64,000 bases of DNA from Betaproteobacteria bacterium. GTDB lineage: Bacteria > Pseudomonadota > Gammaproteobacteria > Burkholderiales > Rhodocyclaceae. The notes beneath the pieces were generated by a model. That model searched no databases and was not told where the DNA came from. It saw only the letters and a list, made by a program, of their open reading frames with translations. Position numbers and translations under genes: made by a program. How positions within the stretch are numbered: position 1 is the stretch's first letter; every line of letters starts with the position of its first letter. Positions 7,453 through 29,955 of this stretch are shown piece by piece. The stretch spans positions 1 to 64,000 of the forward strand of contig WREP01000001.1 in NCBI GenBank assembly GCA_009779265.1, given 5' to 3'.

Positions 7453-7482
7453 ATTATAGGGGAGGGGCGGCGGGGCGGTCAA
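7453..7482 (-). promoter_or_regulatory. Sigma-70 promoter of tRNA-Met
   Basis: Minus-strand TTGACC (7477-7482), 18-base spacer, and perfect TATAAT (7453-7458). Transcription would start about ten bases before the tRNA 5' end. Confidence 0.8.
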
Positions 7483-7488
7483 GCGCGC

Positions 7489-7494
7489 TATAAT
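7489..7494 (+). promoter_or_regulatory. -10 box for the miaB operon
   Basis: Perfect TATAAT on the plus strand, 57 bases before the miaB ATG. The -35 region is GC-rich and poor. The box lies back to back with the tRNA promoter, so the two divergent promoters share one short region. Confidence 0.55.
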
Positions 7495-7550
7495 TGGCGG
7501 CCTTTTTGCAGCCTGCCGTCGCACGATGGCCCCGTTTCCAGAAGTTACCC

Positions 7551-8894
7551 ATGCCCAAGAAACTGTTCATCCGCACGTTCGGGTGCCAGATGAATGAGTA
7601 CGATTCGGACAAGATGGCCGACGTGCTCAATGCCGCCGAGGGGGTCGTCAAGACCGACAATCCCGAGGAGGCCGACATCATCCTGTTCAACACCTGTTCG
7701 GTGCGCGAGAAGGCGCAGGAGAAGGTGTTCCACGATCTTGGCCGGGTTCGCCGCCTGAAGCAACAGAAGCCGGATCTGCTGATCGGCGTCGGCGGCTGCG
7801 TCGCCAGCCAGGAGGGCGATGCCATCGTCGCCCGCGCGCCCTTCGTCGATGTGGTGTTCGGGCCGCAGACGCTGCACCGTCTGCCGCAATTGCTCGCCGA
7901 GCGGCGGCAGAGCGGACGGACGGCGGTCGATGTGTCCTTTCCCGAAATCGAGAAATTCGACGCCCTGCCGCCGGCCGAGGTCAAGGGCGGTTCGGCTTTC
8001 GTCTCGATCATGGAGGGCTGCTCCAAGTTCTGCACGTACTGCATCGTGCCTTATACGCGCGGCAACGAGGTGTCGCGGCCTTTCGCCGATGTGCTGACCG
8101 AGGTGGCCGATCTGGCGGCGCACGGCGTGCGCGAAGTGACCCTGCTCGGCCAGAATGTCAATGCCTATCGCGGCGACATGGACGATGGCGAGGAGAAGGC
8201 CGATCTGGCGCTGCTGATCGAGTACATCGCCGAGGTGCCGGGCATCGAGCGCATCCGCTATACCACCTCGCATCCGCGCGAAATGAGCCAGCGTTTGCTC
8301 GACACTTACATCAAGGTACCGAAGCTGGTTTCGCACCTGCATCTGCCGGTGCAGTCCGGCGCCGACCGCGTGCTGGCGGCGATGAAGCGCGGCTACACGG
8401 CGCTCGAATACAAGTCGGTGGTTCGCAAGCTGCGCGCCGCGCGGCCGGACATCGCGCTGTCCACCGATTTCATCGTCGGCTTTCCCGGCGAGACGGACGC
8501 CGATTTTGAAAAAACCATGAAGCTGATCGACGAGGTCGGTTTCGATGCGTCCTTCTCCTTCATCTACAGCCCGCGCCCCGGCACGCCGGCCCTGGAGCTG
8601 GCCGACGACACGCCGGCCGAGGTCAAGTCGGCGCGGCTGGCCCGGCTGCAAAAACGCATCGACGAACTGGCGCAGGGCGTCAGCCAGGCCATGGTCGGCA
8701 GCGTGCAGCGCGTGCTGGTCGAAGGCGCGGCGAAGAAGGACGCCGGGGAACTGGCCGGACGCACCGACAATAACCGCATCGTCAATTTTCCCGGCGGTAT
8801 CAACAGCGCGCGGCTGATCGGCCATTTCGTCGATGTCCGCGTCACCGCGGCCCTGCCGCACAGTCTGCGAGGTGAAATTGTCATCCGCGACTAA
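7551..8894 (+). CDS. miaB: tRNA-2-methylthio-N6-dimethylallyladenosine synthase MiaB
   Basis: 447 residues. This radical-SAM methylthiotransferase adds the 2-methylthio group to i6A37 of tRNAs that read UNN codons. The N-terminal UPF0004 domain supplies Cys12, Cys49 and Cys83 for one 4Fe-4S cluster. The radical-SAM triad is Cys157-x3-Cys161-x2-Cys164 in [13 protein letters not shown]-terminal TRAM domain follows (about residues 370-440). The start is ATG 7551 ([18 protein letters not shown]), not the upstream in-frame ATG at 7494, because the family begins here. It is the first gene of miaB-phoH-ybeY-corC, a conserved RNA-maintenance operon, and its end overlaps the phoH start. Confidence 0.97.
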
Positions 8895-10272: not shown

Positions 10273-11124
10273 ATGGATAGCGCCAGCAAACCCGGTTTCA
10301 TCGAGCGCCTGACCACCTTCCTGCTGCGCGAGCCGGAAGATCGCGCCCAACTCATCCAAATCCTGCACAACGCCCACGAGCGCCAACTGCTGGACGCCGA
10401 CGCCCTGACCATGATCGAAGGCGCGCTGGCGGTCTCGGAAACCCGGGTCGCCGACGCCATGGTGCCGCGCGCCCAGATGGGCGTCATCGACGTCGACGCG
10501 CCGCTCGCCGGGATTCTGGCGACGGTCATTGCCGCCGGCCACTCGCGCTTTCCGATCATCGACGGCGACCGCGACAATGTGCTCGGCATTCTGCTCGCCA
10601 AGGACCTGCTGCGCATCCGCGACGAAGCCGGCTTCACGCTGCGCCACTGGCTGCGACCGGCCGTCTTCATCCCGGAATCGAAGCGCCTGGATGTGCTGCT
10701 GCGCGAATTCCGCGTCTCGCGCAACCATATGGCCATCGTCGTCGACGAATTCGGCAGCGTCGCCGGCCTCATCACCATCGAGGACGTACTCGAACAAATT
10801 GTCGGCGACATCGCCGACGAATACGACTTCGACGAGACGCACGACAATATCCGCCGCGACTCGGCCGGCCGCTACCGGGTCAAGGCCGGCACCGCCATCG
10901 CCGACTTCAATGCCGCCTTCGCCACCCATTTTTCCGCTGCCGAGTTCGCCACGGTCGGCGGCCTCCTGCTGGACCACCTCGGCCACGTGCCGAAACGCAA
11001 CGAGCGCGTCGTCATCGACGGCCTGCGCTTCCAGGTGCTGCGCGCCGACAGCCGGCGGCTCTACACCCTGCTCGTCGATCCCCTGCCGGCGCTGGAAAAC
11101 GGTGACGAACCCGCCGCCGGCTAG
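10273..11124 (+). CDS. corC: CorC/HlyC-type CBS-domain protein (YbeX)
   Basis: 283 residues. Two CBS domains span about 55-190 (VADAMVPRAQMGVIDVDAP, SRFPIIDGDRDNVLGILLAKD, VVDEFGSVAGLITIEDVLE). A CorC_HlyC transporter-associated domain follows at about 200-275 (ADFNAAFATHF ... GGLLLDHLGHVPKRNE). The family is annotated as a magnesium/cobalt efflux accessory. In this operon position (ybeX) it has also been linked to ribosome metabolism. It starts five bases after ybeY. In relatives lnt follows directly; here 680 bases of repeats intervene. Confidence 0.93.
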   Translation: MDSASKPGFIERLTTFLLREPEDRAQLIQILHNAHERQLLDADALTMIEGALAVSETRVADAMVPRAQMGVIDVDAPLAGILATVIAAGHSRFPIIDGDRDNVLGILLAKDLLRIRDEAGFTLRHWLRPAVFIPESKRLDVLLREFRVSRNHMAIVVDEFGSVAGLITIEDVLEQIVGDIADEYDFDETHDNIRRDSAGRYRVKAGTAIADFNAAFATHFSAAEFATVGGLLLDHLGHVPKRNERVVIDGLRFQVLRADSRRLYTLLVDPLPALENGDEPAAG

Positions 11125-11640
11125 AGCCATCTTGATCCAACCCGGCGCATTTCCCACCCTCTCCCCAACCCTCTCCCGTCAAGGGAGAGGGCGCAGGGCA
11201 AGCGCACGAAAAACCGCGCTTGCCTCCTCAGCCACCATTCCCCGTCATTCCCACGCAGGCGGGAATCTAGTAGCCACCTTCATGCGTTTGCTGGATTCCC
11301 GCCTGCGCGGGAATGACGAATGGAGCGGCCGGCGGCCTTATCCCCGCCAGAGAGGCTGTCGCAAAAGGCCACTGCTCCCCTCCCCCCTCGCGGGGGAGGG
11401 GCCGGGGGAGAGGGGGAGGTTGATCGAAGAAAGGCGCGAGGGGCAAACCAATCGCCGTCGCTCTTGCGGCCTTTCCTTTATGGCTGTTCTGTGGATCAGC
11501 CGCCGTCTCCCATGCCGCTTCCCCCTCTCCCCAACCCCTCCCCCGCGAGGGGGGAGGGGCTTCAACAAGCGCGAACTGAGCCTTTTACGACAATTTCCTT
11601 ATATTGAAAAACAAGGAAAATCGCGTTCCTTATACATGCT
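11125..11640. repeat. Cluster of palindromic intergenic repeats between corC and lnt
   Basis: There is no gene here. In order: a hairpin CCCTCTCCC/GGGAGAGGG (11169-11191); an inverted repeat with 28-base arms at 11243-11270 and 11291-11318 (two mismatches, motif ATTCCCGCCTGCGCGGGAAT), a design common in betaproteobacterial intergenic DNA; and two further C/G-rich palindromes around 11383-11422 and 11520-11562 built on CCCTCCCCC and GGGGGAGGGG. The long open frames through this region are artefacts of the GC-rich repeats. Confidence 0.8.
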
Positions 11641-11644
11641 CCTG

Positions 11645-11815
11645 GGTAGGGCCGGGGTAAGGGGCGGCAGCGTGCAATTTCGCGCAAGCAGCTTGATAAA
11701 CCGCACCCCTAACCCTCTCCCCGCCAAGCGGGGCGAGGGAATTTGGGGGGCGGAAAGTTTGTCGCATTCTGTGCCTCGAAGGCTCTTGAGAGTGCAGCAC
11801 ACCGCATGCAATTAA
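11645..11815. repeat. Composite intergenic repeat, copy 1
   Basis: This block matches 27742-27909 over roughly 170 bases. Shared segments include AATTTCGCGCAAGC, GCTTGATAAAC, AGCGGGGCGAGGGAAT and TCGCATTC, with a palindrome CCCCGCC.AGCGGGGCG in the middle. Its right end contains the lnt start codon (GCATGCAATTAAA; copy 2 ends with GCAGGCAATTAAG). Confidence 0.8.
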
Positions 11816-13272
11816 ACCCAAACTGCTGTCAGCGCCTCGCCCCCCGCCTCCTCGCCGCCGCCGGCCTCGGCGCGGTCGGCGTGCTGGCCTTTGCGCCCTT
11901 CGATTTGTTCTGGCTGGCGCCGCTCGTCTGGCTCGGCTTTTTGCTGCTCCTGCGCCGCGCCGCCGATGTCCGTCAGGCGGCGCTGAGCGGTTTTGCCTTC
12001 GGCCTCGGCTTTTTCCTTGGCGGCGTCTCCTGGGTTTATGTCAGCCTCTCGGTCTTTGGCGGCATGCCCTGGTGGCTGGCCGGCCTTGCCGCCTTTCTCT
12101 TCTGCGCCGTGCTGGCGCTGTTCCCGCTGTTCGTTGGGGCCGCCTTCAAGCGCTGGCAGCCGGCGACCGACTGGCGGCAGGCGCTGTTTTTCGCCGCCCT
12201 CGTCGTCGGCGGCGACTGGCTGCGCGGTTGGATCTTCACCGGCTTTCCCTGGCTGGCGGTTGGCTACTCACAGACGCCGCCCAGCCCCCTGGCCGGCTTC
12301 GCCCCGCTCATCGGCGTATACGGCCTGTCGCTGCTGGCCGCGCTGTGCGGCGCCCTGCTCCTTTGCCGCTGGCGCGGCGCGCTGGCCGTCGCCCTCATCC
12401 TTCTCGCCGGTTTCGGCCTGCGCCAGATGGCGTGGACGACGCCCGACGGCGAAGCGATCCGCGTCGCGCTGATCCAGGGCAACGTGCCGCAGGACATGAA
12501 ATTTCGCCCGGAGAGCCTGATCCGCACGCTCGACCTGTACCGCGAGCTGATCGAACAACACCCGGCGCAACTGACCCTGCTGCCGGAAACCGCCTTCCCG
12601 CTCTTTTTCGATAATCTGCCGGAGGATTACGTCGCGGCGCTGAAAACGGCGGCGGCCCGGCAGGACGGCGACCTGATCTTCGGCGCCCTGAGCGGCGATA
12701 ACGACCATTACTGGAACAGCGCCATCAGCCTCGGCCACTCGCCGCTACAGATTTACCGCAAGACCCATCTGGTGCCGTTTGGCGAAATGATCCCGCCCGG
12801 TTTCTCGTGGTTCATGCAGGTGGTCAGCATTCCGCTGGCGTCGTTTTCGCGCGGCCCCGAGCGCCAGCCGCCACTGGAAGTCGCCGGCCGCCGGGTGGCG
12901 ATCAATATCTGCTACGAGGACGCCTTCGGCGAGGAAATCATCGCCGCCCTGCCGCATGCCGGCATTCTCGCCAATCTTTCCAACACCGCCTGGTTCGGCC
13001 GCTCGCTGGCACAGCCGCAGCATTTGCAAATCGCCCGCCTGCGCGCTCTGGAAAGCGGCCGGCCAATGCTGCGCGCCACCAATACCGGCATGACCGCGAT
13101 CATCACCCCCGACGGCGCCGTCACGGCGCAACTGCCGCCTTTCACGCAGGGCGTGCTGCAAGCCGAAGTGAGCGCTTACCGGGGACTGACGCCCTACGCC
13201 CGTTTCGGCAACGGCCCGGCGCTGGCGCTGCTTCTGCTCTGTCTGGCAGTCAGCCGCCGCCGGCGAGCCTGA
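11806..13272 (+). CDS. lnt: Apolipoprotein N-acyltransferase
   Basis: 488 residues. An inner-membrane enzyme that transfers the third acyl chain to the N-terminal cysteine of lipoproteins. About six transmembrane helices occupy residues 15-205. The periplasmic nitrilase domain follows with the catalytic triad Glu261 (LLPETAFP), Lys319 (YRKTHLVPFGE) and Cys369 (ICYEDAFGEE). A last helix lies near the C-terminus. ATG 11806 fits the family but has a weak ribosome site and falls within a repeat copy, so the true start could differ slightly. Normally lnt follows corC directly; here it probably needs its own promoter. Its 3' end overlaps the convergent gene by 23 bases. Confidence 0.94.
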   Translation: MQLNPNCCQRLAPRLLAAAGLGAVGVLAFAPFDLFWLAPLVWLGFLLLLRRAADVRQAALSGFAFGLGFFLGGVSWVYVSLSVFGGMPWWLAGLAAFLFCAVLALFPLFVGAAFKRWQPATDWRQALFFAALVVGGDWLRGWIFTGFPWLAVGYSQTPPSPLAGFAPLIGVYGLSLLAALCGALLLCRWRGALAVALILLAGFGLRQMAWTTPDGEAIRVALIQGNVPQDMKFRPESLIRTLDLYRELIEQHPAQLTLLPETAFPLFFDNLPEDYVAALKTAAARQDGDLIFGALSGDNDHYWNSAISLGHSPLQIYRKTHLVPFGEMIPPGFSWFMQVVSIPLASFSRGPERQPPLEVAGRRVAINICYEDAFGEEIIAALPHAGILANLSNTAWFGRSLAQPQHLQIARLRALESGRPMLRATNTGMTAIITPDGAVTAQLPPFTQGVLQAEVSAYRGLTPYARFGNGPALALLLLCLAVSRRRRA

Positions 13273-17713: not shown

Positions 17714-18307
17714 ATGATCGGCACACACCCGCACCCTGGCGAGATTCTCAAGGAAACGCTTATTGCGCCGCTCGGCCTGTCCGTGGCCGAGGCTGCCGAC
17801 CGACTGGCAATGTCTCACGATGGCCTGTTGGACGTACTCGACGGCAAGGCTGGCATGACTCCCGATCTGGCCCTGCGTCTCGAAAAGGCCGGCGAGAACA
17901 CGGCGCATTTCTGGATGGCCGTTCAGTCCAACTTTGAACTATGGCGCGCAATGCAGCATTCCCGGCCTGTTGTCCGCGTATTGCGAACTGGCGCGGTGCC
18001 AGCGCCCGAGGAGGCGGCGCGACCGCTTCCAAAAAGCTATTTGTCTGATGTGGATCGCGCTGTCGCGTATGCGGATGGCTTGTCGGATGATTCCATCTGC
18101 ATGGATGAATCAACGGCGGCCGAAAAAGCTGGCGATGATGCCGCATCGTGGGCGTGGATGGCACGTGCCGAGTTGCCCGCACATACGCTCGCGTTTCTCA
18201 AGGGCCAGAACGGTGCACAATTCATCCGTGACTTGGGTTTTCGCACCAGGAAAGCCGACGAAGCATACGGGCCGGGCTGGCTGGATCGCCCCGACAGTGA
18301 ACCGTGA
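17714..18307 (+). CDS. HigA-like XRE regulator with a C-terminal extension
   Basis: 197 residues. Residues 1-80 are a clear HigA/VapI-type helix-turn-helix: HPGEILKETLIAPLGLSVAE, ADRLAMSHDGLLDVLDGK, LALRLEKAGENTAHFWM. Standard HigA ends near residue 100. Here about 100 further residues follow (from RPLPKSYLSDVDRAV to GWLDRPDSEP) that I do not recognise. No HigB toxin is adjacent; the neighbours are mazF upstream and a phosphatase-like gene overlapping by four bases downstream. It may be a third regulator or antitoxin of the MazEF unit, or an antitoxin-effector fusion. Confidence 0.75.
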   Translation: MIGTHPHPGEILKETLIAPLGLSVAEAADRLAMSHDGLLDVLDGKAGMTPDLALRLEKAGENTAHFWMAVQSNFELWRAMQHSRPVVRVLRTGAVPAPEEAARPLPKSYLSDVDRAVAYADGLSDDSICMDESTAAEKAGDDAASWAWMARAELPAHTLAFLKGQNGAQFIRDLGFRTRKADEAYGPGWLDRPDSEP

Positions 18308-18898
18308 GAGCAACACTCATCCGTCACGGCCAAAGCACGGGCAATGCCGGCGTACCGTGTCATGATCTGGCGCTGATCGAGTTAACAGGACTCGGCCATG
18401 AACAGGCGCAAGCCATCGCCGCTGACTGGAAGGAAGAACCGGTGCTGATTGTCACGTCACCCTATTTGCGGACACAGCAAACCGCCGCGCCGACCATCGA
18501 GCGATTCCCCGGCGTGCCGGTCGAAGTGTGGCCCATCGAGGAATTCACCTACTTGCAGCCTTCGCGCTGGCGAGGAGCGCGCAGCGCCGACCGAATGCCG
18601 CATGTGGAACGCTATTGGGCTGCCGCCGATCCGGGCTATTGCGACGGCGCGGAAAGTTTCGCAACGCTTCTGCGACGCGCCGAGGCGGCGCTATCGCGTC
18701 TTGCCGCCCAACCTGCCGGCCCTGTCTATGTTTTTCAGCCACGGCCAGTTCATGCAGGCGGTGCGCTCGGTCGTGGTCGACACCGGGCTGGATGACCGCG
18801 CCAAAATACGCGGCTTCTGGCGCAAGGGCGAGCCGCCCGCGATCAGCAACGGGGAACGGGTAAACCTTGCTTGGTCGGGCGAGCGCTGGACACTGTAA
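18304..18898 (+). pseudogene. Histidine phosphatase (phosphoglycerate mutase-like), frameshifted
   Basis: The GTG start at 18304 overlaps the previous stop. The first frame gives TLIRHGQSTGN (catalytic His in RHG) and LIVTSPYLRTQQTA. It then runs through AAQPAGPVYVF and loses the family pattern at a run of five T (18731-18735). The +1-shifted frame continues exactly with SHGQFMQAVRSVVVD and ends at 18898, with NGERVNLAWSGERW near its C-terminus. Removing one T restores a protein of about 197 residues with both catalytic histidine motifs. Either the gene is inactivated by a one-base insertion or the homopolymer length is a sequencing error. It is the last gene of the mazEF-HigA run, ahead of a terminator. 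Confidence 0.75.
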
Positions 18899-19131: not shown

Positions 19132-19983
19132 TTATTTGATCGGCGAAAGCAGGGCGGGCGCGCCGAATTCCATCAGTTTTGCGTTGCTGGCCTCGAAGTA
19201 GGCTGTCCAAAACTGGCGCAACAGCGAAATGGTCTTTGGGTCGCGATATATACCGCTGTCCGTGTTTTTCGAGCCGGCGCCCTTCTGCACCAGACCGGCG
19301 CCAAGGACGAACACGCGCGCGCCGCCGAAATCGCCGATCATCTCCTGCGCCTTCTTGAGTTCGGCTTTCGGGTCGATGGCGCGGACATTCCGGTTGGCAT
19401 AAAACGACGAAATACTCGAGTTCTCCAGCATGTCGGAAACGATGAACACGATCCTGTCACGGGCTTCGGATTGCCTCACCCGCGCCGAAAGTTCCCGAAG
19501 GCTACCCAACACATCCGATTTGGCAAGAGCCGGGTTGCTCGCGCCCATCGCCCTGTTGATCGCCGCCGCCGCCGCCTTGCGGCCAAAGGCCGCCTGATCC
19601 GCCATGCAGGCATCGAAGCCGCGCAACACCTTGACCGAAATATCATCCCGCGCGGCATCGTCGATTGGCGATTCCAGCGCGCCCGCGCTCAACACCTCCA
19701 GATAGCGCCCCTGACTGAAAGAGGAAAAGCTGGCAATGACAAATGCCGCCCCTGGCTTGACCAGCCGGTCGGCGTTTTCCCGAACGGCATCCTGCAAGGA
19801 AGAATCCAGGGGCGTGGTCTGGTCGATCAGGACAAACAACTCGGTCTGCGGCGCCGGCACCGCCATTTTCATCTTGTTGGCGGCATAGCAACTGGGAATG
19901 TCATTGGCAACTCCAGCCCAAGCCGAAGCGACGAAGCAAGCAGAGAGCAGGAGGGTAATTATCAGTTTGACAAAGTTCATCAT
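19132..19983 (-). CDS. Secreted VWA-like protein of a three-gene envelope cassette
   Basis: 283 residues with an N-terminal export signal (MMNFVKLIITLLLSAC, then FVASAWAG). It could be cut by signal peptidase I after AWA or, since LSAC fits a lipobox, be a lipoprotein. The core looks like a von Willebrand factor A fold: LFVLIDQTTPLDSS (49-62) in place of the DxSxS metal site, and RIVFIVSDMLENSS (about 179-192). DxTxx is a degenerate metal-binding motif. Residues 85-175 are helical with a conserved-looking Cys. I do not recognise a named family. It is the third minus-strand gene after the OmpA-lipoprotein and membrane-HTH genes, separated from the latter by a 172-base gap containing an inverted-repeat element. 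Confidence 0.7.
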   Translation of the reverse strand: MMNFVKLIITLLLSACFVASAWAGVANDIPSCYAANKMKMAVPAPQTELFVLIDQTTPLDSSLQDAVRENADRLVKPGAAFVIASFSSFSQGRYLEVLSAGALESPIDDAARDDISVKVLRGFDACMADQAAFGRKAAAAAINRAMGASNPALAKSDVLGSLRELSARVRQSEARDRIVFIVSDMLENSSISSFYANRNVRAIDPKAELKKAQEMIGDFGGARVFVLGAGLVQKGAGSKNTDSGIYRDPKTISLLRQFWTAYFEASNAKLMEFGAPALLSPIK

Positions 19984-20014
19984 TGTTTGGAGCAGCTTAA
20001 ATTCAGTGTCATCT

Positions 20015-20105
20015 GAAAACCGGATTGCTTCTCAGCACTCGCATTGACGGCCTTCTCCTGGCCGTCATTTCGAGAAGCGGAGTGACGAAGCAATCCGATT
20101 TTTCG
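20015..20105. repeat. Inverted-repeat element (GGATTGCTTC family), copy A
   Basis: The left arm begins GAAAACCGGATTGCTTC and the right arm ends GAAGCAATCCGATTTTTC, with GACGGCC/GGCCGTC flanking a short loop. The same consensus (GGATTGCTTCG ... CGCAATGACG) recurs at 29881-29955 and 32416-32489. Confidence 0.75.
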
Positions 20106-20155
20106 GGAAGGATATTGGCACGCCACGGCGCGGTGGACGACGATTTTCGTGGCAC

Positions 20156-21655
20156 TCATCCGCGCATAAATTCGTCTACCGCATCTTGCGCGATGCGCCA
20201 CTGGCTGCCAATCTTGCGAGCCCTGAGACGGCCAGCCTCGATTTCCGCCAATACATCGGTTTCGCTGGCGTCGAGCAATTGGGCCGCCTGCGCGACGGTC
20301 ATGATTTGCAGACCCGGTGCCGTGGCCGCTGGCGGCGGTTCAGGTTTTTTGGGCACATCTGAATCTTGCGGCGATATTGTTTTAGCTGCAATTGCTAGCA
20401 TATCCGGCTTGACATTTTCCGCGTTTGGAATAACCGCCGCAGGCTCAGAGCGTGGAGTTTGGCTTGATCCTTGCAGCGGCGGTTGATTGTTATGCGCATT
20501 CTGGGACTCCTTTGTTTTTCGTGCTTCCATCGCCAAAAAGTCATCAAAAGTATGAGTCAGTTTCAGATTATTTGGTGAGTTCTTGTTCAATCGGCGCTGT
20601 AATTCTTTCAAACGCGCATTAACAATGTCCTTCCAGGGCTGCATCGCCTCCCAATAAGCCTCGTAGGTTGAATAGCCCCAAGTATCGGCATATGCGCCGT
20701 CTTTTTCCGACCACCACCAAAACGAATTTTTACCTTCAGCTTTCTTGTACGTTTCGCGGCCAGCAAAGCAGTGCTTGTAGCCCGTACCAAACCCGACAAT
20801 CTGTGTTACAACAAAAATTACTCCAAGAATAAAAATGGCGGCGCCACCTTCGATTTTTGTGCTGGCGAGCACCTCTTCGGTGGCCCTTTTGTCGGCAGCC
20901 GCCTGCGGCGCCTTCAACTCGGATGGCATGGCGGATTGTGCGAAAGGATTGCTGGCCGTTGCCTGAGCGGCTTGCGATTCAAGCGTTAGCTCTCTATCCA
21001 TGTGCTTGTAGCGCATAACACCCGATGCTACAAAAATTGCAACGACAAAGGCACCGGCTACCCACGACCAGAAGTAAGAGCCTCTATCATGCGGATTCGC
21101 AATGATACGGTTCATGCATCGCGTTTCAGGCGGATCACTCTTGTCGGAAAATTGATTTTCACTCAGCGATATAACTTGCGGGGAAGGAAAATCGGTGTTG
21201 CCTCTTTCCTTATAACGAGCGTGGCATGAGCGTTTAAGGCGAGTACGGTAAAACTCCTCGCCTGCCTGATGAGTCACAAAAGCCAATATGGATGCCAGCA
21301 CAAAGACAATCCCATACATCAACTGGGTATAGAGATTGGCGCTGCCTTCGCTGGCAATCCACGTGCCCAACAGGTAGGAAAAACCCATGGATTCAGCAGC
21401 GACTAGCAGGAATAAAAATATCTTGAATCCAGTCCCCACAGGGGTCCGCCCCAAATCACCAGCATGTTTCATGTACTCGATACGGTTCAGAAACTCATCT
21501 TTTGAACGCTGGGTCATGTATTTCTTGTAGGCAATACACAACTTTTCTTCGGCATTCATCCAGCCGTCGCGCCCACGCTCGAAGTTTTTTGAGTTCTTGG
21601 CGATAGTTCCAAATATCGGAAAACGCACAAAGAAATCCGTTAAACGAATAGACAT
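20156..21655 (-). CDS. Four-helix membrane protein with C-terminal excisionase-type HTH
   Basis: 499 residues. Predicted transmembrane segments are about 78-98, 111-129, 194-214 and 269-292, so N- and C-termini should both be cytoplasmic. A soluble segment lies between helices 2 and 3 (130-193) and another between helices 3 and 4 (215-268). After a low-complexity Pro/Ala linker, residues 452-499 form a MerR/excisionase-like helix-turn-helix (MTVAQAAQLLDASETDVLAE, RARKIGSQWRI, DAVDEFMRG). A DNA-binding-type module tethered to a membrane protein is unusual. Its function is unknown; membrane-bound regulation of the cassette is a guess. It starts 26 bases after the OmpA gene, with a GGGGG ribosome site. 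Confidence 0.75.
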   Translation of the reverse strand: MSIRLTDFFVRFPIFGTIAKNSKNFERGRDGWMNAEEKLCIAYKKYMTQRSKDEFLNRIEYMKHAGDLGRTPVGTGFKIFLFLLVAAESMGFSYLLGTWIASEGSANLYTQLMYGIVFVLASILAFVTHQAGEEFYRTRLKRSCHARYKERGNTDFPSPQVISLSENQFSDKSDPPETRCMNRIIANPHDRGSYFWSWVAGAFVVAIFVASGVMRYKHMDRELTLESQAAQATASNPFAQSAMPSELKAPQAAADKRATEEVLASTKIEGGAAIFILGVIFVVTQIVGFGTGYKHCFAGRETYKKAEGKNSFWWWSEKDGAYADTWGYSTYEAYWEAMQPWKDIVNARLKELQRRLNKNSPNNLKLTHTFDDFLAMEARKTKESQNAHNNQPPLQGSSQTPRSEPAAVIPNAENVKPDMLAIAAKTISPQDSDVPKKPEPPPAATAPGLQIMTVAQAAQLLDASETDVLAEIEAGRLRARKIGSQWRIAQDAVDEFMRG

Positions 21656-21681
21656 AACACCCCCTGAAAGTCAAAGAATTT

Positions 21682-23346
21682 TTATCGAGCGATCACCGGC
21701 GAATAATCCGCCTGATACATGGCCTTGCCATACTCATAAATCAAAGTCGATTCCGGCGCCGTGTTTGGGGCGCTGGTTGAAATTGCCATGTCCACGCAAC
21801 GCACCGGCCCCTCGTCGGGGAATACGCGGTAAAGCAGCGCCTTGTCGCCACGATAAACATTGACGTCCCCCGAAGTTTTGAGAAGCGGCTTGGCGTTCGA
21901 GCCGTCTACCCAGTCCTTCCATATGAAGAACGCGGGGCGACCAGCGGGTTGGCCGCCGTCACGCAGCACGGCGACGCCGCTCAGGCCGACCAGATGGCCA
22001 TTCGCCTTGCCCGCCCAGGAGGAAGATGCCGTGCCCGGGAAATAGTCGGAGGTTTTGCGTTCCTGCCCCGACTCAAGTGATTTGACGCGGTTGCTGATGC
22101 GCGGGCGATCCGTGGCGCAGCTTCCGACAGGCAGGCTGTCAGCGGCGTGGGCTCTGGAAATCAGGCTGAAAACGCTGGAACCCCCTACTGGCTGGCCAAT
22201 ATCGACCGTCTTGTAGGCGCCGCCATTGATTCGCTTGCCGCCAAAATCCAGACCGCCCAAGGCGACGGTGCCTGCTTCGCGCTTCGCCTGGGATGGGGTG
22301 ATGGATGAAGGCGGCACCTTGCTCTCTGTCGCGTCGACGGAGCTGGCTGTTTGTGGTCTGGCAGATGGGGCGGCGGGCGTTGCCGCGCTTGCCGTTGCCG
22401 CCGTTTTGCGGTCATTGCTCTTTTTAACGGGAGCCGAGGCGATGCGGGGCGTATCGACAGTGGTCGGAGCGGCTGGGCGATAATTGGCCACATTGGGCCG
22501 GCGCGATTCGAGAAAGGCGCTGAATGCCGCGTCATCGCTCAGATCGACGACTTCCACCCGGCGGTTGAGGGCGCGCCCTTCTTCCGTCCGGTTATCGGCA
22601 ATCGGGTACACTTCGCCCGCGCCCTGGTAGTAGATCTGGTTCGCGCCAAAGCCGTGCTGGGAAAAGATTTTGGCGATGGCTCGGGCGCGCCCTTCCGACA
22701 AATCCGCATTCGCTTGCGATGATCCCATGTCATCGGTATGGCCTACGAGCAGAATGCGCATCTTTTTATTGCGCTCCTTGGCCTCGCGCACGGCGTTGGG
22801 ATCATTCCCGGTTGGCGCGACGGCATATTTGTCGGCTATCGCGGCAAACGCTTTTTCGGCTTGCGGGGATGGCGTGGCCGACCCAGACGCGAACTGATTA
22901 TTGCCGCGATCAAGCACCGTCAAACTCATGCCGGCGGTCTCTGGCTTTGGCGCGTCTTGCGCGGCGTCTTGCACGGCATTTCCCGATGGCGCCTGCGCCG
23001 GAACCTTGATGTCCGTCATGCGAATGTCCAGATTGTGCGCCTTGGCCACCTTGGATAGCTCGCAGCGGCGGCGATCAATATCTGCGCCAATCAGCCCGCC
23101 AATGAATGCGCCCACGCCGGCCCCAAGCACAACGCCCTTGTTGTCGCCCACTTTTTTGCCAATCAGTCCGCCCGCCACAACGCCTGCCACGATGCCGATA
23201 TTTCTTGCATTGTTGGAACAGGGGTCGTCGCTAGCAAAAGTGGATTTCAGGACGTCTCCCGCGCTTTGGGACTGCCCGTTGGGGCCTGTCGCGCAGCCAG
23301 ACGTTATCAGCACGCACGCAATGGCGGCGCTTCTTTTCACTCGCAT
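21682..23346 (-). CDS. OmpA-family lipoprotein with glycine zipper and extra C-terminal domain
   Basis: 554 residues. The signal sequence ends in LITSGC, a lipobox-like site that would anchor Cys18 in a membrane. A glycine zipper follows (GIVAGVVAGGLIGKKVGDNK ... GAFIGGLIGAD, about 50-90). An OmpA C-terminal peptidoglycan-binding domain spans about 140-275 (LVGHTDDMGSSQANADLSEG, ARAIAKIFSQHG, RALNRRVEVVDL). After a disordered Ala/Pro/Ser stretch (290-360) comes a second, cysteine-containing domain of about 150 residues that I cannot assign. It probably spans from a membrane to the cell wall. It is the first gene of the cassette, with AGGAG ten bases before ATG 23346 and a TATAAT box upstream. 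Confidence 0.82.
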   Translation of the reverse strand: MRVKRSAAIACVLITSGCATGPNGQSQSAGDVLKSTFASDDPCSNNARNIGIVAGVVAGGLIGKKVGDNKGVVLGAGVGAFIGGLIGADIDRRRCELSKVAKAHNLDIRMTDIKVPAQAPSGNAVQDAAQDAPKPETAGMSLTVLDRGNNQFASGSATPSPQAEKAFAAIADKYAVAPTGNDPNAVREAKERNKKMRILLVGHTDDMGSSQANADLSEGRARAIAKIFSQHGFGANQIYYQGAGEVYPIADNRTEEGRALNRRVEVVDLSDDAAFSAFLESRRPNVANYRPAAPTTVDTPRIASAPVKKSNDRKTAATASAATPAAPSARPQTASSVDATESKVPPSSITPSQAKREAGTVALGGLDFGGKRINGGAYKTVDIGQPVGGSSVFSLISRAHAADSLPVGSCATDRPRISNRVKSLESGQERKTSDYFPGTASSSWAGKANGHLVGLSGVAVLRDGGQPAGRPAFFIWKDWVDGSNAKPLLKTSGDVNVYRGDKALLYRVFPDEGPVRCVDMAISTSAPNTAPESTLIYEYGKAMYQADYSPVIAR

Positions 23347-23773: not shown

Positions 23774-23850
23774 TGGTGGGCCCGCAGGGATTCGAACCCT
23801 GGACCAAAGGATTATGAGTCCTCTGCTCTAACCGACTGAGCTACAGGCCC
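23774..23850 (-). tRNA. tRNA with CAU anticodon, probably tRNA-Ile2 (or Met)
   Basis: A 77-base cloverleaf with encoded CCA. The acceptor stem is GGGCCTG, the anticodon stem-loop AGGA-CTCATAA-TCCT, and the T-arm CAGGG/CCCTG. The GGGCCTGTAGCTCAG 5' end resembles isoleucine tRNAs, and C4-G69/C5-G68 match known recognition features of the lysidine synthase TilS. I therefore favour tRNA-Ile2, which reads AUA after C34 is modified. Elongator Met remains possible. It starts seven bases after the rpoD stop on the same strand. Confidence 0.88.
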
Positions 23851-29880: not shown

Positions 29881-29955
29881 CTGGATTGCTGCGCTCGCAA
29901 TGACGGCTATTTCTTGCACCGTCATTGCGAGAAGCGCAGCGACGAAGCAATCCAG
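29881..29955. repeat. Inverted-repeat element (GGATTGCTTC family), copy B
   Basis: The left arm CTGGATTGCTGCGCTCGCAA and TGACGG face the right arm CCGTCATTGCGAGAAGCG, ending AAGCAATCCAG. It lies between the convergent tsaD and yebC genes, where it could also act as a two-way terminator. Confidence 0.8.

Follow-up and report, generated by a model that had tools for sequence, protein, structure and literature searches.

The DNA analysed here (the window) is a 64,000-nt stretch of contig WREP01000001.1 from the Betaproteobacteria bacterium assembly GCA_009779265.1. Its minus strand carries three consecutive open reading frames (ORFs), designated A, B and C, at the positions given for them in an initial annotation made from the sequence alone. 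They encode a predicted OmpA-type lipoprotein, a polytopic membrane protein and a predicted exported protein with a VWA fold, respectively (Table 1; locus coordinates are positions in the window). On the evidence of sequence comparisons, these genes form one conserved unit, referred to below as ABC.

A search of genome contigs with the C profile yielded 76 loci, the six-frame ORFs of which were then scanned with hidden Markov models (HMMs) of A, B and C, matches of 40 bits or less being left out. The initial annotation had proposed checking whether the three genes co-occur in the same order, and the order A-B-C was indeed found in 59 of the 76 loci. Each gene was present in single copy in 56 of these 59, the others having the arrangements ABBC, AABC and ABCA (one each); one of the 56 simple loci (L049) has an extra ORF between B and C. 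The remaining 17 loci contained B-C (eight, with B running off the contig in three), C only (six), B-C-A (two) or A-C (one). Some of the 76 loci are closely related (several Lonsdalea, Shewanella, Cupriavidus and Photobacterium), and the set is therefore not independent; L045 and L048 correspond to G078 and G072 in the same-order genome search. Length limits retained 74 C, 57 A and 61 B candidates, seven C sequences (over-long or with odd starts) and two B sequences were left out of the alignments, and duplicates within lineages were skipped when loci and neighbours were read. An ORF of a metagenome bin (L041, 9447-9992), excluded from one alignment, begins as A and ends as B and looks like the product of an internal deletion.

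The same order was present in all eight plasmid-collection loci read. Searches of this collection gave 20 records with C and 21 with B or part of B, one "plasmid" record (Aeromonas, 4.9 Mb) being chromosome-sized. The hosts of the unit belong to the Beta-, Gamma- and Alphaproteobacteria, the Campylobacterota and Nitrospirae bins, and include, according to record titles, Herbaspirillum, Paraburkholderia, Cupriavidus, Massilia, Methylotenera, Shewanella, Photobacterium, Pantoea, Phaeospirillum, Campylobacter and Sulfurospirillum. Among the 56 simple loci, A and B are separated by 0-79 nt, and 27 show a B-C overlap of 4 or 1 nt; where the overlap is longer, a start further upstream was probably chosen. 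The distance matrices of A, B and C were correlated (r of 0.82-0.90 over 51 loci, the largest of 999 permuted values being 0.16), a correlation that partly reflects shared host descent. In six loci, belonging to distant hosts, the unit adjoins a LemA-family gene (L032, at 11114-11944, L036, L041, L052, L054 and L073); the one gene of the six that was checked matched Pfam LemA at 3.1e-26. The unit is named in none of Pfam, NCBIfam, PHROGs and PADLOC, in agreement with the initial view that the combination was undescribed. A literature search returned nothing on it; preprints and most subscription papers were outside the reach of this search, so we do not claim its absence from print.

Protein A contains a glycine zipper (residues 50-93; Pfam, 1.8e-7) and an OmpA domain (residues 189-262; PF00691, 5.1e-15), both above cut-off and both as initially annotated. 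A lipobox-like LITSGC motif, with Ala following the Cys, was recognised by eye, and a loose lipobox-like pattern, from which lipidation is predicted, was present in 61 of 68 A proteins. With its OmpA domain and lipobox-like motif, A can be placed among the OmpA-domain lipoproteins. It resembles YiaD, PA1041 and Pal in this respect, and YiaD also in its glycine zipper, but it scored under the curated cut-offs of the NCBIfam Pal, YiaD and PA1041 models (45/125, 110/175 and 73/250 bits, respectively) and differs from these proteins in having a linker and a conserved C-terminal domain. Linker and domain are conserved across 58 sequences, in which A399, A401, R507 and D519 are invariant and C410 and C517 are present in 57. 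The C-terminal domain spans about 190 residues, rather than the 150 first estimated; structure prediction, which the initial annotation had recommended for it, gave a small beta barrel. ZorB models match A over the OmpA domain only (3e-8), the lipobox-like motif (by eye) replacing the anchor helix. In L077, a lipoprotein-like ORF preceding B-C (7471-8529) seemingly has the C-terminal domain of A without the OmpA domain (by eye); if so, the essential part of A would be its C-terminal domain.

Protein C begins with a signal-peptide-like sequence (by eye), and its predicted structure supports a VWA (Rossmann-like) fold, as had been supposed from the sequence. No sequence-family match was obtained for C in Pfam, NCBIfam or PADLOC, and PHROGs gave one match at 0.19. 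Its structural matches include VWA domains from pilus and adhesion proteins, and a Foldseek comparison with viral models returned mostly VWA-annotated or unnamed proteins, with low TM-scores. The pilus and adhesion matches would fit an adhesin displayed on the cell surface by ABC, but C is a small protein linked with B and A, not with a secretion apparatus, and a VWA fold by itself shows no function; we consider this role highly improbable. The metal ion-dependent adhesion site (MIDAS) motif of VWA domains consists of DxSxS, T and D. The site in C had been described as degenerate, a view not borne out by the alignment of the window protein with 67 homologues: D54, T/S at position 56, S/T at position 156 and D184 were each kept in 68 of 68 sequences, and position 58 alone was free. 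Four of the five MIDAS positions of this putative metal-binding site are, thus, kept or conservatively exchanged. C32 and C126 were present in 67 of the 68 sequences.

The four membrane helices initially assigned to protein B correspond to four hydrophobic stretches (residues 79-97, 110-128, 195-213 and 271-289), and its tail is, as annotated, an excisionase-type helix-turn-helix (HTH; HTH_17, Pfam 4.8e-10). The body of B had no convincing family match in Pfam, NCBIfam, PHROGs or PADLOC. An N-terminal helix was detected with a hydropathy threshold in 63 of 72 B proteins, some of those scored as negative (e.g. L060) looking like threshold misses; the window B lacks this helix. The HTH_17 domain was found in one of the 60 B proteins scanned, that of the window itself, the other tails being helical-looking segments (by eye) or zinc ribbons. 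On contig C24 of this genome, an SPFH-like gene, so labelled from its sequence and not from a family search, ends in DNA that matches the DNA of the tail at 80% identity over 167 nt, as far as the stop codon. The body of this SPFH-like gene (residue 1 to 280-327 of 355) was matched in 28 other genomes of the genus, never to its end, and a 29th gave a weak match inside the gene. The HTH tail alone had no match outside its own genome among the 34 genus genomes sampled; outside the genus, one same-order genome had a 39% tail match in another ORF. It is therefore probable that, in this genome, one of two membrane-associated proteins acquired the tail as a copy from the other.

The initial annotation had proposed that the HTH tail links the envelope to cytoplasmic DNA. 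A membrane-to-DNA relay of this kind would be consistent with the excisionase-type match and with the cytoplasmic position of the tail in the topology proposed below. However, the tail is confined to one of 60 B proteins and, within the genus, to B and the SPFH-like gene of a single genome, the other SPFH relatives matching the gene body and not the tail. We therefore rejected the HTH tail as a family-wide link to DNA, and consider a relay of this type very unlikely.

The window copy of the unit differs from its relatives in its spacing: the B-C gap is 172 nt, versus 57 nt or less in 55 of the 56 simple loci, and it contains a REP-like repeat (REP, repetitive extragenic palindromic), similar copies of which lie at 29919 and 32418 in the window. 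The TATAAT motif of the single promoter initially proposed for the three genes is present before A, but the promoter-like sites in the region were not clearly above chance (4 vs 2.6 in shuffles, standard deviation 1.7). As C lies 172 nt behind B, with the repeat in between, the joint transcription of A, B and C is putative. Third-position GC content is 0.69 for A, 0.53 for B and 0.74 for C, and 0.84 for rpoD. The long spacer, the low value for B, the missing N-terminal helix and the swapped tail could be taken to mean that the window copy is a remodelled or decaying remnant of an otherwise functional family. We regard this as improbable, given that all three frames are open and that the conserved residues of A and C have been kept. 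Upstream of A lie the tRNA-Met gene, rpoD and dnaG (the last two named from sequence). Downstream of C, the opposite strand carries a histidine-phosphatase ORF, another one that matches an HTH weakly and, 1.4 kb past C, the pair MazE/MazF; the histidine-phosphatase ORF (18304-18898) has an apparent frame change near its end and appears broken (by eye).

Table 1. Positions of the features described, in the window and in other loci
Feature	Sequence	Position	Strand	Description
Gene A	Window	21682..23346	-	554 aa lipoprotein: glycine zipper, OmpA peptidoglycan-binding domain, linker, conserved C-terminal domain
A C-terminal domain	Window	21685..22269	-	Residues 360-554; predicted small beta barrel
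Gene B	Window	20156..21655	-	499 aa polytopic membrane protein without the usual N-terminal helix
HTH_17 tail DNA of B	Window	20156..20322	-	Resembles 3' end of SPFH-like gene, contig C24
Gene C	Window	19132..19983	-	283 aa exported VWA-fold protein (predicted)
REP-like repeat	Window	20062..20096	-	Inside 172-nt B-C spacer
TATAAT	Window	23396-23391	-	Putative -10, about 45 nt before A start
tRNA-Met	Window	23774..23850	-	Beside rpoD
SPFH-like gene	L002	1498-2565		Shares HTH tail with window B
B-C-ZorA-ZorB operon	L106	4891-10163		
B-C-ZorA-ZorB operon	L129	6383-11526		
CRISPR locus	L108	35-3738		C-like VWA gene with Cmr6 and TM-CARF gene
CRISPR locus	L217	263-7516		C-like VWA gene with Cas1, Cas2 and RAMP gene

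On the basis of its distribution, the ABC locus is accessory, as the initial annotation had suggested. The query P0002 matched none of 35 same-genus genomes, with one same-order genome matched over the tail only, and P0003 matched three of 200 genomes of the order, its own included; P0003 alone, searched against genome contigs, gave no match. The C profile detected 13 of 398 genomes of the phylum (nine at E < 1e-70, including the genome of the window) and 11 of 274 genomes of the class. The rpoD-tRNA DNA was matched in all 34 genus genomes sampled, at full or near full length in most, and A, B and C were absent from the 7-17 kb stretch behind the tRNA in the 15 relatives read. In three of these 15, a second copy of the last 46-52 nt of the tRNA, the mark of an integration site, was found 2-10 kb downstream, and in a fourth (L180) the tRNA is in two pieces. 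The three relatives with second copies (L166, L167 and L168) have variable gene content, and in L167 an integrase-like ORF adjoins the tRNA (by eye). Because of these second copies, which are found in the relatives and not in the window, the DNA behind tRNA-Met is suggested to be an integration hotspot in the genus. A tRNA-bounded island with intact ends was considered for the window itself and rejected, the window having no second copy of the tRNA 3' end.

Weak matches to C led to a second family, of which 21 distant loci were read. Homology of C to the genes of this family is strongly supported: the two profiles aligned at 99.2% (3.7e-19), a reverse search recovered the window C at 6e-15, and three single distant proteins matched the C profile in hhalign at 98.6% (1.3e-15), 96% (4.6e-9) and 93% (2.7e-7), each E-value being that of one comparison. 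Support for the homology of B is moderate (profile-profile alignment at 91%, 1.1e-6, over 215 columns). In 11 of the 21 loci (L106, L129-L134, L211, L212, L214 and L215), B, C, ZorA and ZorB genes lie in a row, forming an undescribed, Zorya-like operon, the ZorB of which was well identified in two loci (PADLOC ZorB2, 1.4e-27 and 3.9e-27). Eight of the 11 operons come with a nuclease, either as a domain fused to ZorB or as a gene no more than two genes away: an HNH domain is fused to ZorB in L106 and its close relative L129, and an SNase domain in L131, and a separate SNase-type gene is present in L133, L211, L212, L214 and L215. The fused nuclease domains should face the periplasm, because they come after the OmpA domain. 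Ten hand-picked proteins around the operons of L129 and L133 were scanned: the former operon sits between Lamassu LmuA/B/C and PD-Lambda-1, and the neighbours of the latter match PDC-M01A, PDC-S57 and Avs5/ThsA. Two further loci (L108 and L217) are CRISPR loci with a C-like VWA gene and a multi-helix membrane gene, and in the other eight C is accompanied by no more than B or a different membrane gene. Homology to B is not established for the B-position genes of L102, L108, L119 and L216-L219.

We tentatively propose, with a confidence that stops a little short of even, that ABC is a motor-less trans-envelope sensor or defence complex. The lipid of protein A would hold it in the outer membrane and the OmpA domain would grip peptidoglycan, with the C-terminal beta-barrel domain pointing into the periplasm. 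C would be a free periplasmic VWA protein binding a partner through its MIDAS-like metal site, most likely the C-terminal domain of A or the periplasmic loops of B. B would lie in the inner membrane, with its N- and C-terminal regions in the cytoplasm, and, by way of its exchangeable tail, may inform the cytoplasm of the state of A-C contact. The unit might sense an envelope breach or strain, as in phage entry, and then trigger a protective response; ABC would be related to a Zorya-like machine with the same B and C, but would lack its motor.

Several observations weigh against this proposal. No matches were obtained at 1e-4 with a ZorA profile built from 11 relatives in the ABC stretches and the window (six-frame ORFs of at least 60 aa, in stretches reaching at most about 12 kb past the match), nor with SNase and GmrSD-type HNH profiles in the ABC stretches, ZorC/D/E/F/G not having been searched individually; a ZorB profile matched A proteins only, weakly. 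ABC, therefore, has no known effector. The initial annotation had also recommended looking for defence genes among the neighbours, and about ten PADLOC matches at 1e-20 were obtained (five to mad3, two to IetA and one each to PDC-S08, PDC-S18 and TRIP13) for 146 of 350 listed ORFs, from 26 of 58 loci, in a weak test with no background control. The neighbours were taken by a longest-ORF rule, which also takes antisense ORFs in GC-rich genomes, those of <140 or >800 aa being left out; many look like housekeeping genes (by eye). No relative was found in viral contigs. The link to defence is only via the distant relatives of C and B. In those relatives, the homology of B rests on one profile comparison, single distant B proteins showing weak or no similarity, and the identity of ZorA is modest (PADLOC ZorA2, 1.3e-5 and 7.5e-7; Pfam MotA_ExbB at 0.007, under cut-off, in one operon and with no match at 0.001 in another). 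Finally, the window copy is atypical and may be failing.

The scarcity of defence genes and the many ordinary-looking neighbours would also fit an envelope-maintenance tether connecting the outer membrane, peptidoglycan and inner membrane, with no defence role, the distant defence relatives sharing B and C only. The adjoining LemA-family gene in six loci and the resemblance of A to anchor lipoproteins of the YiaD/PA1041 type, albeit under cut-offs, point in the same direction. Maintenance genes are, however, not usually distributed patchily, carried on plasmids or associated with a tRNA integration hotspot, and we judge this explanation somewhat unlikely.

The proposed sensor or defence complex can be compared with several known systems. 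Zorya anti-phage systems consist of ZorA and ZorB with ZorC/D, ZorE or ZorF/G (PMC11890865). ABC resembles them in having an OmpA-type peptidoglycan-binding subunit in an envelope machine, and homologues of C and B occur in operons with ZorA- and ZorB-like genes. It differs in having no ZorA-like gene and no SNase or HNH match in the stretches read, and in that A, which carries the OmpA domain, is a lipoprotein and has an additional domain at its C-terminus. ABC is not classed as Zorya, because of the negative ZorA search, but may still work like a Zorya relative. The vWA force transducers are membrane-tethered VWA proteins adjoining tolQ-like genes (PMC12204202). The likeness lies in a periplasmic VWA protein thought to cooperate with inner-membrane proteins across the envelope; in ABC, however, C looks free and exported, beside B and A, motor genes having been sought there with the ZorA profile alone. 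CRISPR-linked vWA and transmembrane genes (PMC10910872) recall the C-like VWA genes beside a membrane gene in L108 and L217; the accessible part of that paper names no A-B-C unit and no OmpA lipoprotein.

It is also possible, although we hold this broader view with less assurance, that B and C constitute a transferable sensing core, shared by a family of defence machines that span the envelope, with ABC, motor-plus-nuclease and CRISPR branches. In the ABC branch, B-C would be joined to an outer-membrane, peptidoglycan-gripping lipoprotein, and a motor would be unneeded. In the second, B-C would be combined with a ZorA-ZorB motor and a periplasmic nuclease, cutting phage DNA as it crosses the periplasm, and in a third variant B-C would act in CRISPR loci of the type III kind. 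The libraries and papers searched contain no name for either ABC or the motor branch as a unit.

ABC is a conserved, mobile, unnamed three-gene envelope unit present in about 2-4% of the sampled genomes of the phylum and class. The tail common to B and the SPFH-like protein illustrates how such a unit can swap its cytoplasmic output. Should the proteins B and C form a sensing core common to Zorya-like machines, the manner in which such systems perceive envelope attack would become directly testable, with B and C as two separable proteins and with the VWA site of C, which is well conserved. The sister operon, with its periplasm-side nucleases, would represent a new way of cutting incoming DNA before it reaches the cytoplasm.

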